From assembly GCF_003260275.1 (NCBI RefSeq), contig NZ_QJHB01000002.1, forward strand, positions 124,001 through 188,000: a stretch of DNA of 64,000 bases, given 5' to 3'. Made by a program: the position numbers and the translations under genes. Below the pieces are notes generated by a model. It saw nothing but the letters and a program-made list of their open reading frames with translations, searched no databases and had not been told where the DNA came from. This DNA comes from Homoserinimonas sp. OAct 916 (GTDB taxonomy: Bacteria; Actinomycetota; Actinomycetes; Actinomycetales; Microbacteriaceae). Shown here piece after piece: positions 16,453-38,705 of this stretch (within the stretch, counting starts at the first letter, position 1; each line of letters opens with the position of its first letter).

Positions 16453-16772
16453 ATATTCCTCTCCGGTTCCAACCTTGTCTGCCACCACGGCATTGCCTCG
16501 GGCGGAAATCGTGCCAGGCCCGGCGCCATGAAATGCGTCTGCCGAGCCAGTCGCGAAAGGCGTCGCAACACCACTGCTCAGCAGAAATCCCGCAACTGTG
16601 TTCGCGCGGGAAGAACTCTTGAAATATAGCATGGCCGTCTGAATCCTCTCTGGGCGCGCGCCGCTCAACAAGAAACTGGGAGCTCTCCGCAGCTCTTTGC
16701 GCGATACCCCCACCGGGTATACAATTGGAGGCAGACACCCGCTGGCAACGATCAGGAATGAGGCCTCGCATC
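16453..16772. other. Divergent regulatory region between tmm and copZ
   Basis: The minus-strand frame stays open up to 16713 but its residues do not look like the Tmm family, so it is treated as tmm leader. It contains the tmm ribosome-binding site (minus GGAGAGGA just above 16452) and, at 16697-16725, the copZA promoter and operator. Confidence 0.6.
16697..16725 (+). promoter_or_regulatory. copZA promoter with CsoR-like operator inside the spacer
   Basis: -35 TTGCGC (16697-16702), exactly 17 bp, -10 TACAAT (16720-16725). The whole spacer is the pseudo-palindrome ATACCCCCACCGGGTAT (16704-16720), matching the ATACCCC..GGGTAT shape of CsoR-family operators. A repressor bound here would block RNA polymerase; copper release of CsoR would induce copZA. 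No csoR gene is in the window. Confidence 0.7.
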
Positions 16773-16985
16773 ATGGTTCAGACCGTCTATACCGTGACCG
16801 GCATGACCTGTGCGCACTGCGAACGCGCCGTCGCTGAAGAAGTGGAACGAATCGTCGGCGTGACCGCTGTCGAGGTGAGCGCGAAGACGGGGCTGCTTGG
16901 GATCTCCAGCAACGCAGCGATCGACGAAAAATCGGTTCTCGCGGCTGTGGATGAGGCCGGCTACGAGGCCGCGCGAGCATCATGA
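16773..16985 (+). CDS. copZ: Heavy-metal-associated (HMA) copper chaperone
   Basis: 70 residues forming a single HMA ferredoxin-like domain. The Cu(I)-binding loop is 'GMTCAHC' (residues ~8-14) and the fold ends 'AVDEAGYEA'. It delivers Cu(I) in the cytoplasm to the CopA exporter encoded 49 bp downstream. ATG at 16773 gives the family start (VYTVTGMTC); an ATG at 16758 is a less likely alternative. Expression is expected to be copper-inducible through the CsoR-like operator upstream. Confidence 0.93.
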
Positions 16986-35639: not shown

Positions 35640-36035
35640 TCAACCCTCGGCGTCGAGGTAATACCACTCTCGGTCGACCCGCTGGAATCGGCTGTTCTCC
35701 TGCTGCACGTCTGCCTGGCGAGCAGTGGAGCCGGCAGCTTCCCGGTAGTGGGCACGAAACTCCACCGTTCCGTCATCGTCGAGCAATCCACCGCCCGTCG
35801 TCGATATGACATCAAGGCGATACCACCGGATGCCCGGGTCAAGTTGCAACGACGGTGGTCGGGTGCGCGGATGCCATGTGCGCAACAGATAGCCGGCATC
35901 ACTGATCGCGAACGCCGAGAACCTAGACCGCATCAACTCGACAGCCGTGGTCGCCGTGACCTCGCCACGGTGCAAACGCCCACAACACTCCCCATAGATC
36001 AGGCCGCTCAGACAGGGGCAACGAGTGGAGGACAT
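35640..36035 (-). CDS. ychJ: YchJ family protein (SEC-C / UPF0225)
   Basis: 131 residues. N-terminal Cys-rich SEC-C-type zinc motif 'CPCLSGLIYGECCGRLH' (CxC..CC) followed by the YchJ NTF2-like middle domain ('AVELMRSRFSAFAISDAGYLLRTWHPRTRP', 'VEFRAHYRE'). Role unproven in the family. ATG at 36035 is 6 nt after GATAAT on the minus strand, so it is likely leaderless; its promoter region adjoins the divergent persulfide operon. Confidence 0.93.
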   Translation of the reverse strand: MSSTRCPCLSGLIYGECCGRLHRGEVTATTAVELMRSRFSAFAISDAGYLLRTWHPRTRPPSLQLDPGIRWYRLDVISTTGGGLLDDDGTVEFRAHYREAAGSTARQADVQQENSRFQRVDREWYYLDAEG

Positions 36036-36041
36036 GCTCTC

Positions 36042-36047
36042 ATTATC
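36042..36047 (-). promoter_or_regulatory. -10 hexamer GATAAT of leaderless ychJ
   Basis: Minus-strand GATAAT, 6 nt, then ATG 36035. Confidence 0.5.
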
Positions 36048-36118
36048 GCTCCAGGGATACCCCTGTTCTCGACCTCAAACTCGCCGAAAACCGACTCTCA
36101 GTCGTGATCAAACAAGAT

Positions 36119-36148
36119 TTGGCATAAATACCCCCTAGGGTATAAGAT
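36119..36148 (+). promoter_or_regulatory. Promoter of the persulfide operon with first CstR-like operator
   Basis: -35 TTGGCA (36119-36124) with -10 TATAAG at 36141 (16-bp spacer) or TAAGAT at 36143 (18-bp). The spacer and -10 are covered by the palindrome ATACCCCCTAGGGTAT (36128-36143), the shape of operators for the persulfide-sensing CstR/CsoR family. Confidence 0.7.
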
Positions 36149-36161
36149 GAGTCCATAGCGG

Positions 36162-36177
36162 ATACCCCCTTGGGTAT
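36162..36177 (+). promoter_or_regulatory. Second CstR-like operator in the 5' leader
   Basis: ATACCCCCTTGGGTAT, the same 16-bp pattern as the first site with one base changed, centred 34 bp downstream of it. Two sites suggest cooperative or roadblock repression. No CstR-type gene is present in the window. Confidence 0.7.
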
Positions 36178-36206
36178 CTTTGCGTGAACATGAGAAGGAG
36201 AAGCAC

Positions 36207-37625
36207 ATGCTGCTCGAGCGCATCTATGACGAAGACCTGTCCCAAGCAAGCTATTTCATCGGATGCCAGGTCAAGGGCGAGGCTGTCGTTGTCGACGCTC
36301 GCCGAGACATCCAGGTCTACCGAGATCTGGCCGTCGCGAACGACATGCAGATCGTCGCCGTCACCGAGACGCACATCCACGCCGACTATCTTTCTGGTAC
36401 GCGTGAACTTGCTGCGGCAACCGGAGCCACCATGTATGTCTCCGGCGAGGGCGGCGAAGACTGGCAGTACGGTTTCGACGCCAACCGCCTGTTCGACGGC
36501 GACACGATCACGCTCGGCAACATCACCATCCAAGCCGTCCACACCCCGGGCCACACCCCGGAACACCTGGCGTTCCTGATCACCGACGGTGCGTTCAGCG
36601 ACAAGCCCGGCTTCATGCTCAGCGGCGACTTCGTCTTCGCCGGCGACCTCGGCCGGCCCGACCTGTTGGATGAGGCCGCCGGCGGCGTCGACACGCGTTT
36701 CGGCGGCGCCAGGCAGCTCTTTGGCAGCCTGCGCGACAAATTCTTGACTCTGCCCGACCACGTTCAGGTGCATCCCGCCCACGGGTCCGGCAGCGCCTGC
36801 GGAAAGGCACTGGGCTCGATCCCCTCCAGCACCGTCGGCTACGAACGGCTCTACGCCTGGTGGGGCCCCTACCTCGCAGCAAATGACGAGCAGGGCTTCG
36901 TCGACAAACTGCTCGACGGCCAACCAGACGCGCACGGCTACTTCGGGCGCATGAAGCGCGAGAACCGCGATGGGCCCGCCATCATGGGTGAGCGCGCTCC
37001 ACTGGCCGAGTTGGACAATATCGCTATCGCCGCAGACCTCGCCCAGGACCGAATCACGTTCGTCGACACCCGCACAAACACCGAGGTGCACGAAGCAACC
37101 GTCGAGGGCGCGTTGAACGTGCCGAATGCCGGCAAGTTCGCCACCTACGGGGCCTGGGCCTACGACCCGGAGACCGACTCCCGGCCGCTGGTGCTGCTTG
37201 CCGAGAGCCAGGATTCCGCGATGGACATGTGGGACCACCTGGTGCGAGTTGGTATCGACACCGTCGCCGGCTACACCACCACCCTCGACGGGTTGCCCAA
37301 AGTCACCCCGAAGATGATCCAACCCGAAGAGGTCGCCGACTTCGACGCGGCCGTGTTGCTGGATGTGCGCAACAACACTGAATATGCCGCCGGAACCATC
37401 CCCGGCGCGACCCATCTCGGCGCGAGCCGCGTGATGTGGCACCAGGACACGTTGCCCGCTCAGGGCACGATCGTCACATTCTGCCAGACCGGGGTGCGCA
37501 ACTCGGTGGCCGCCAGCGCCCTGCGCCGGGCCGGTCACGACGTTGTCGAGGTTGACGGCGCCTATGAGGCCTACGCCAACTGGCAGGCCTCCGAACGGGC
37601 ATCCCTCCAAGACTCACTGGTCTGA
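36207..37625 (+). CDS. Persulfide dioxygenase-rhodanese fusion (MBL fold plus rhodanese domains)
   Basis: 472 residues. N-terminal metallo-beta-lactamase domain with iron ligands 'THIHADYLSG' (HxHxD), 'HTPGHTPEH', 'GDFVFAGDLGRPD' and 'HPAHG', typical of ETHE1-like persulfide dioxygenases. A degenerate rhodanese domain (about 265-360) has no Cys, and a C-terminal active rhodanese domain (about 375-465) has 'TFCQTGVRNS' with catalytic Cys. The order MBL-rhodanese-rhodanese is that of CstB-type enzymes that oxidise glutathione/thiol persulfides to sulfite or thiosulfate. ATG at 36207 has AAGGAGAA upstream. Confidence 0.93.
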   Translation: MLLERIYDEDLSQASYFIGCQVKGEAVVVDARRDIQVYRDLAVANDMQIVAVTETHIHADYLSGTRELAAATGATMYVSGEGGEDWQYGFDANRLFDGDTITLGNITIQAVHTPGHTPEHLAFLITDGAFSDKPGFMLSGDFVFAGDLGRPDLLDEAAGGVDTRFGGARQLFGSLRDKFLTLPDHVQVHPAHGSGSACGKALGSIPSSTVGYERLYAWWGPYLAANDEQGFVDKLLDGQPDAHGYFGRMKRENRDGPAIMGERAPLAELDNIAIAADLAQDRITFVDTRTNTEVHEATVEGALNVPNAGKFATYGAWAYDPETDSRPLVLLAESQDSAMDMWDHLVRVGIDTVAGYTTTLDGLPKVTPKMIQPEEVADFDAAVLLDVRNNTEYAAGTIPGATHLGASRVMWHQDTLPAQGTIVTFCQTGVRNSVAASALRRAGHDVVEVDGAYEAYANWQASERASLQDSLV

Positions 37626-37730: not shown

Positions 37731-38705
37731 ATGAGCATCGCCCTGATAGCGACACTCGTGCTCGCCGTGCTGATCGGCGTCTCGCTCGGCCTGCTCGGTG
37801 GCGGAGGTTCGATCCTCACGGTTCCGATCCTCACCTACGTCGCCGGCTTCAGCCCGAAAGAGGCCATCGCGGCGTCCCTTTTCGTTGTCGGTGCGACATC
37901 GGCGGTGGCTGCCATCCGCCATGCCCGCGCCGGGCGGGTCAGATGGCGCACAGGGCTCGTCTTCGGCGCTGCCGGCATGGCCGGGGCATTCGCTGCCGGG
38001 CTGGTCGGTGGCCACATCCCGGGCACCATCCTCATGATCGCCTTCGCCCTCATGATGGTGGCCACCTCGCTCGCAATGATTCGCGGGCGCAAGAAACAGG
38101 CCTCCTCCCCCACCACCGGCGAGCTGCCGCTGGCCAAGGTCATCATCGAGGGCCTCGTCGTCGGGCTGGTCACCGGCCTGGTCGGTGCGGGTGGCGGCTT
38201 TCTGATCGTGCCTGCCCTCGCCCTTCTCGGCGGGCTCCCCATGCCCATCGCGGTCGGTACGTCACTTGTGGTCATCGCCATGAAGTCGTTCGCCGGACTC
38301 GGTGGCTACCTCACCAGCGTCAGCCTCGACTGGCCCCTGGTCATCGCCGTCACGGTGTTCGCAATCGCGGGATCCTTCCTCGGCGCCCGGCTCGCCGGCC
38401 GCATCCCCGAGGTCGCACTGCGCAAGGGCTTCGGCATCTTCGTTCTGATCATGGGTGTGTTCGTGCTCGCGCAGGAACTCCCGGCTCCGGGCGGCCTGAT
38501 CCTCGCAATCGCAGCCGGCATTGTGGCCGTCGCCTCAGCAATCTGCTGGTTCGCCTTCCCCACGTGCCCCCTGCGCAGATTCCGTGCAGAAGAACCGGCA
38601 GCGGCACCGATCGCGGAATCGGTACCAGACTCAGAGCCGGCACCAGACTCAGAGCCGGCAGCAGACACAGCGGTGCCTCCGACTACGAGCGCTGCAACCC
38701 GCTGA
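37731..38705 (+). CDS. TauE/SafE family sulfite (organosulfur anion) exporter
   Basis: 324 residues, about eight hydrophobic segments. Family hallmarks 'GVSLGLLGGGGSILTVPIL' in the first segment and its inverted-topology counterpart 'GLVGAGGGFLIVPALALL' near residue 150. C-terminal 45 residues are a repetitive acidic tail (SEPAPDSEPA repeats) of cytosolic type. It follows the persulfide enzyme by 105 bp and is probably co-regulated by the CstR-like sites, removing the sulfite that enzyme makes. Confidence 0.93.
   Translation: MSIALIATLVLAVLIGVSLGLLGGGGSILTVPILTYVAGFSPKEAIAASLFVVGATSAVAAIRHARAGRVRWRTGLVFGAAGMAGAFAAGLVGGHIPGTILMIAFALMMVATSLAMIRGRKKQASSPTTGELPLAKVIIEGLVVGLVTGLVGAGGGFLIVPALALLGGLPMPIAVGTSLVVIAMKSFAGLGGYLTSVSLDWPLVIAVTVFAIAGSFLGARLAGRIPEVALRKGFGIFVLIMGVFVLAQELPAPGGLILAIAAGIVAVASAICWFAFPTCPLRRFRAEEPAAAPIAESVPDSEPAPDSEPAADTAVPPTTSAATR

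Follow-up and report, generated by a model that had tools for sequence, protein, structure and literature searches.

Paired CstR-type operator candidates at a persulfide dioxygenase operon of Homoserinimonas sp. OAct 916 and their spacing relative to copper CsoR operators

Introduction

In Streptomyces coelicolor, the CsoR-family repressor ScCsoR (SCO0620) controls a persulfide dioxygenase (PDO)-TauE operon, a rhodanese gene and itself from neighboring genes. The available part of that report (PMC7533328) gives the operator as ATACC-n6-GGTAT, corresponding to eight bases between TAC and GTA (X8), describes two such 16-bp sites at −48 and −9 from the transcription start of PDO, and records a 100- to 480-fold increase of PDO mRNA in the absence of ScCsoR. 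CstR of Staphylococcus aureus governs the CstB persulfide dioxygenase-sulfurtransferase and TauE, together with cstA and sqr, and a single operon is its likely direct target (accessible part of PMC5480029). The same protein family includes copper sensors such as S. lividans CsoR, whose operator is given as 5'-TAC-X9-GTA-3' in the portion of the source at hand (PMC3902906). TTHA1953 of Thermus thermophilus is a cysteine-based CsoR-family repressor of sulfur genes, the sox genes, and is encoded apart from its targets (PMC10318464, as far as the source is accessible).

Here we analyzed a 64,000-nucleotide stretch of the Homoserinimonas sp. OAct 916 genome (the window), which lies in contig C62. 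An earlier note on this DNA had proposed that twin CstR-like operators control a persulfide operon in the window. As judged from sequence, the switch matches the published Streptomyces ScCsoR-PDO-TauE-rhodanese circuit in a dispersed layout. The candidate regulator, encoded on contig C84, has Cys39 and Cys68, a 29-residue separation like that of Cys37 and Cys66 in ScCsoR (PMC7533328, in part) and Cys31 and Cys60 in S. aureus CstR (PMC5480029, in part). Two 16-bp sites stand at the PDO promoter in both the window and S. coelicolor, although their positions relative to the promoter differ, and the same gene set of PDO-TauE, rhodanese and the regulator itself is predicted to be controlled. Whereas the ScCsoR genes are neighbors, the regulator here is on a separate contig, and thioredoxin, DUF302 and small-protein genes are extra predicted targets compared with the accessible description of that circuit (PMC7533328). 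Control of a CstB-type enzyme and TauE is likewise predicted as in S. aureus, but the predicted targets are scattered (PMC5480029, in part). The distance between regulator and targets and the spacing-sensitive inverted repeat are also features of TTHA1953, whose 20-bp double TAC/GTA motif differs by having no continuous G/C stretch (PMC10318464, in part).

Paired palindromes at the PDO promoter

The operon in the window encodes the following products.

36207..37625, + strand: CstB-type persulfide dioxygenase-rhodanese fusion (PDO), 472 aa; Pfam Lactamase_B at residues 11-192 and Rhodanese at 381-457
37731..38705, + strand: TauE/SafE family exporter, 324 aa; PF01925, E 2.4e-51

By its domain set, an MBL-fold dioxygenase and a C-terminal rhodanese in one chain, the product of 36207-37625 is a persulfide dioxygenase-rhodanese. 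It aligns to PDB 3tp9 over residues 1-457 and to 3r2u over residues 2-454, and it keeps the THIHAD, HTPGHTPEH and GDFVF-GD motifs and the rhodanese cysteine of 3tp9. The conserved PDO motifs presumably have metal-ligand roles. We set the start at ATG 36207 because 23 other PDO genes start there, with ATG and closely similar next codons. This gene content bears out the claim of the earlier note that the operon carries the enzyme set under CstR in other bacteria, namely under ScCsoR in S. coelicolor and under CstR in S. aureus (cstB, tauE). The divergent gene upstream of PDO (35640-36035) encodes a YchJ-like SEC-C protein and no regulator.

Upstream of the PDO start, a promoter match and two palindromes were located.

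36119..36148, + strand: sigma-70-like promoter match TTGGCA-18-TAAGAT, 9/12 consensus bases
36128..36143, + strand: candidate operator I, ATACCCCCTAGGGTAT, TACCC-N4-GGGTA class, perfect 16-bp palindrome filling the −35/−10 spacer
36162..36177, + strand: candidate operator II, ATACCCCCTTGGGTAT, N4 class, perfect 16-bp palindrome in the leader (initially transcribed region)

The −35-like TTGGCA begins at 36119, and the promoter match is the only sigma-70-like one in 36000-36300 (0.2 expected). The palindromes that the earlier note had placed in the spacer/−10 and in the leader are real, one lying within the promoter match and the other after it. They are 34 bp apart from start to start, and the first TACCC base is 78 bases upstream of ATG 36207 in site I and 44 bases upstream in site II, which has the promoter on its other side. 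Transcription would start near 36154-36157, placing site II just downstream. ATACCC-N4-GGGTAT occurs in the 64-kb window only as sites I and II, and in 0 of 100 shuffles. Both sites fit the ATACC-n6-GGTAT 16-bp promoter palindrome (PMC7533328, accessible part). Like the operator of S. lividans CsoR, they are TAC/GTA inverted repeats around G-tracts, but the accessible description of the copper sensor's site has nine bases between TAC and GTA (X9, here N5; PMC3902906), against eight in the window sites.

Genome-wide, the exact 16-bp form ATACCC-N4-GGGTAT was found six times (control 0), and in the family sample it was found at 155 sites in 59 of 150 genomes (control 0). Looser patterns gave no excess over the reversed control in the whole genome, with 13 matches against 16 for the motif with three mismatches allowed and 15 sites against 14 for TACCC-N3..7-GGGTA. 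The latter search also matched C33, C84:84355, C84:120060 and C135. An N4 match at C22:9449, which seems by eye to lie inside a tRNA gene, was dropped as chance, and the loose matches on C11, C22:11075, C47 and C104:233109 were examined and rejected as sites.

Site II could instead work at the RNA level, as a leader hairpin that controls translation or termination, and the folded leader does show a hairpin over it. However, the folding is no clear improvement on that of shuffled sequences (z −1.42; 18 of 200 shuffles fold equally well), no terminator-like site was found, and the near-identical site I lies in the promoter spacer, outside the transcript. Relatives also keep the site II class although the inner bases differ. 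We consider the RNA explanation extremely unlikely and treat site II as a DNA operator candidate below.

A CstR-type repressor gene on another contig

A PF02583 search of the genome, assembled in 135 contigs, found three CsoR-family genes, on contigs C84, C51 and C49, one of which is of CstR type, as the earlier note had led us to expect. With an assembly this fragmented, an additional cstR may have been missed. The C84 protein belongs to the CsoR/DUF156 family (PF02583 79.3 bits; cut-off 22.8), contains C39 and C68 (C39-x28-C68), and has alanine where the copper-site histidine would stand. Its nearest solved structures are 7mq3 and 7mq1; 7MQ2, grouped with 7mq1, is named CstR in the available part of a review. 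No CstR model among the NCBIfam models matched the C84 protein. The best NCBIfam match was the formaldehyde sensor FrmR, an assignment we rejected at 43.7 bits against a cut-off of 133 bits. The C84 gene is directly behind a single-domain rhodanese gene and divergent from a thioredoxin gene, and the region between the rhodanese-cstR operon and the thioredoxin gene contains ATACCCCTAGGGGTAT. A CstR-type repressor, with release by persulfide predicted, is supported as the product of the C84 gene. The two other proteins have Cys-His-His (C51) and Cys-His-Tyr (C49) at the aligned positions, and the best NCBIfam match of each is the copper repressor RicR, below the cut-off.

On contig C62, about 160 kb separate the window operon from each end, and cstR is on C84, so control would be in trans, in agreement with the earlier statement that the regulator gene is outside the window. 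The two palindromes are very probably docking sites of this persulfide-sensing CstR repressor encoded elsewhere in the genome. The CstR-type gene and the like palindrome in its promoter region support the proposed control of the persulfide operon by CstR-like twin operators.

Further operator copies and the predicted regulon

The exact 16-mers of the genome are the two window sites and copies in the rhodanese-cstR/thioredoxin region and on C104, C93 and C49. The C104 copy precedes a DUF302 gene (PF03625), and the C93 copy (L032, C93:196570) precedes a gene for a small Cys-rich protein without a Pfam match. The copy at C49:21233-21248 (L024/L007) precedes a His-rich, copper-type gene remnant, followed by a SHOCT gene. 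Thus, when the search for further 16-bp sites suggested by the earlier note was carried out, five of the six copies fitted a persulfide regulon, whereas the sixth did not. The sixth copy looks like a decayed leader copy of a P-type ATPase gene on C125. The short His-rich ORF on C49 resembles a shortened leader and N-terminus of that gene, whose own site is N5 (C125:210176-210190, L034), and the C49 copy may have lost one operator base relative to it.

Relatives back the grouping of predicted targets in part. Among 76 other cstR loci of the family, most of them spanning about 6.3 kb, 64 have a rhodanese-like match (a number that may include rhodanese domains of PDO fusions), 20 thioredoxin, 13 PDO, 12 TauE and 3 DUF302. 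Within 1.5 kb of the 77 CstR genes, the counts are 51 for rhodanese-like, 28 for the small protein, 17 for thioredoxin, 9 for PDO, 2 for TauE and 1 for DUF302, and none of these was found within 1.5 kb of the gene at 42 CsoR loci. The small Cys-rich protein, which begins MCRAVRCSVCDKTTWAGCG, is a frequent cstR neighbor (41 of the 76 loci). Half of the matches starting at its residue 1 or 2 (26/52) have an N3 or N4 site at most 120 bp upstream.

Paired sites in related PDO loci and origin of the operon

The comparison of PDO loci covered 50 from Actinomycetota, namely the window and 49 records that include a 5' end. At least one site lies within 200 bp of the start in 40 of them (two or more in 19, one in 21, none in 10), and the spacing is 32-34 bp in 14 of the 19 loci with two or more. 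The reversed control pattern was absent from these stretches, and the eight Bacteroidota PDO loci had no site (0/8). The ten loci without an exact site within 200 bp comprise four from Nocardiopsis/Streptomonospora and one from Dietzia (none in the locus) and five others with one site farther upstream. At 13 Nesterenkonia loci, the sites start 74-80 and 42-46 bases ahead of the start, compared with 78 and 44 in the window. Among the other PDO loci in the family sample, 15 in all, two sites precede the operon in 13 cases, one in 1 and none in 1 when one mismatch and N3 are allowed, with spacings of 21 to 35 bp. Paired sites are common ahead of PDO operons, and their spacing is variable. Two Nesterenkonia records and one Arthrobacter record (L248, L255 and L259) have interrupted PDO frames of 317, 248 and 124 residues, with the upstream sites kept.

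In the PDO tree, the window protein and 16 Arthrobacter-group rows make up a 17-row set (96/90). Arthrobacter proteins are its nearest relatives; the best of those in the tree shares 78% across 467 columns, and for L255, a broken homologue, the best segment gives 83%. The 15 family PDO rows are placed elsewhere: 12 in another set, one with Gulosibacter and two far off. Five records share the set of 12 (97/79, not starred); four are from Microbacteriaceae, in keeping with that family for the window. At 13 of the 15 other family-sample loci, cstR is adjacent to and divergent from the PDO operon; in one of the remaining two (L132) PDO is 0.9 kb from the contig end, where a neighbor could be missed. 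Twelve of the 13 PDO-adjacent family CstRs form part of a 14-row clade excluding the Homoserinimonas CstR, so the affinity of the latter for the window sites is a prediction. The family sample contains no second genome of this genus. On the simplest reading, an Arthrobacter-like donor probably supplied the PDO operon with no regulator gene beside it, and the shared operator would let the resident rhodanese-linked CstR run it.

Operator spacing at CstR and CsoR loci

The half sites of the two operator classes are almost identical, and we compared the spacing in strict TACCC-Nk-GGGTA sites. At 77 CstR-class loci of the family sample (the Homoserinimonas locus included), 86 sites have k=4, six k=3 and one k=5. 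Counted per locus, N4 is present in 67 of 77, N3 only in 6, N5 only in 1, and no site in 3. At the 42 CsoR loci, made up of 40 of the 73 listed rows and the two of this genome, all 36 strict sites have k=5 (31 loci with a site, 11 without). The reversed control gave one site at CstR-class loci and none at CsoR loci. Of the family genomes, 64 have a CstR-class gene, and 58 of these contain the exact N4 16-mer; of the 86 that lack such a gene, one contains it (Fisher p 2e-33, over related and hence non-independent genomes). The lone genome (G134) has its site at a copper-type (CHC) CsoR gene, L200; like the copy before the C49 remnant, it shows that N4 need not signal CstR. The N5 form is present in 106 of 150 family genomes (control 1).

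Phylum-wide, in the best-scoring genomes, 30 CsoR loci had N5 in 20, N4 in 0 and no site in 10. The corresponding 28 CxC loci had N4 in 19 and N5 in 7 (both in two), with none in 4. Among these N5 cases, the site is directly upstream of the gene at L276, L278 and L287. At L283, L285, L286 and L288, which all come from one family of another class, it lies upstream at a distance of about 1.35-1.4 kb, and it could be part of the operon or of a different gene. These four are a possible N5-using CstR group. The seven N5 cases all come from taxonomic classes other than that of the window, so the spacing rule is weaker there. The N3-only (13-bp) CstR loci are L108 and L140 (G049), L115 and L128 (G141), L126 (G128) and L127 (G063). 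Each of G049 and G141 has two cstR-class loci, placed separately in the CstR tree, and both have N3, as if the spacing had drifted genome-wide. A strict universal spacing code is ruled out by the six N3-only CstR loci in four genomes, the N5-only CstR locus, the N4 site of G134 and the N5 CxC loci. In the Actinomycetota sampled, CstR-type operators are mostly TACCC-N4-GGGTA and copper CsoR operators TACCC-N5-GGGTA, with exceptions.

The N5 sites of this genome are at C49:3542, C51:4425, C62:140705 (window 16705) and C125:210176. They adjoin both csoR genes, the HMA-domain (copZ-like) and copA-like genes, and the P-type ATPase gene.

16705..16719 of the window: TACCCCCACCGGGTA, N5 class, immediately ahead of two genes, an HMA-domain (copZ-like) one at 16773 and then a copA-like one

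This site is the copper counterpart of the twin sites within the same window.

The spacing comparison bears on two other readings of sites I and II. The sites could be operators of the copper-type CsoR proteins of C51 and C49, with the operon answering to copper; the shared family and half sites, the N4 site at C49:21233 before a copper-type remnant and the N4 site at the CHC CsoR of G134 are consistent with this. However, the two csoR genes, the copZ-like/copA-like pair and the P-type ATPase gene here all have N5, none of the 36 strict sites at family CsoR loci is N4, the phylum-wide CsoR loci give 20 N5 against 0 N4, and the genes of the operon are sulfur genes. Copper control is very unlikely on these grounds. 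Alternatively, CstR and CsoR could share the sites, giving dual persulfide and copper control across operator classes that differ by only one base of spacing. In relatives, N4 and N5 sites are strongly separated according to the class of the regulator, which argues against sharing, as does the little or no binding of Thermus TTHA1953 and TtCsoR to each other's sites that the accessible part of PMC10318464 describes. That part also reports that one central base added to or removed from the TTHA1953 operator changed the Kd about 10- or 15-fold. Dual control seems a little less probable even than copper control, and CstR remains our preferred regulator of the operon.

Proposed mechanism and significance

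For binding, repression and chemistry we infer the following. Reduced CstR tetramers would occupy site I, which fills the −35/−10 spacer, and so block RNA polymerase, and CstR on site II, just past the predicted transcription start, would tighten repression. When persulfide or polysulfide builds up, Cys39 and Cys68 of CstR would react and the repressor would leave the DNA. PDO-rhodanese and TauE would then be made, with persulfide oxidized and sulfite exported. The same CstR would also govern the rhodanese-cstR operon, the divergent thioredoxin gene, the DUF302 gene and the gene for the small Cys-rich protein. We give a probability of about 0.87 to the whole sequence-based reading, which comprises tandem CstR operators, persulfide-released repression, a dispersed regulon and a PDO operon acquired without its regulator.

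The one-base spacing difference may insulate persulfide from copper control. A further step has in our view about even odds: X8 (CstR) and X9 (copper CsoR) would form a specificity code, and since X8 is common to different genera, a persulfide operon acquired without its regulator, as here, would come under the resident CstR immediately. The X8/X9 contrast is stated nowhere in the literature found, as far as those sources were accessible; on this coverage, the rule is only possibly new.

With this switch, a known circuit of persulfide detoxification is extended to one more actinobacterial genome. Its predicted targets are scattered, and among them the small Cys-rich protein and the DUF302 protein gain a predicted trigger. 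The spacing rule outweighs the switch in importance. It sorts most persulfide regulons from copper regulons, which aids annotation, and it is a testable claim on how crosstalk between near-identical paralogues is avoided. If it is true, sister repressors with nearly equal half sites would keep persulfide and copper regulons apart within a single actinobacterial cell.
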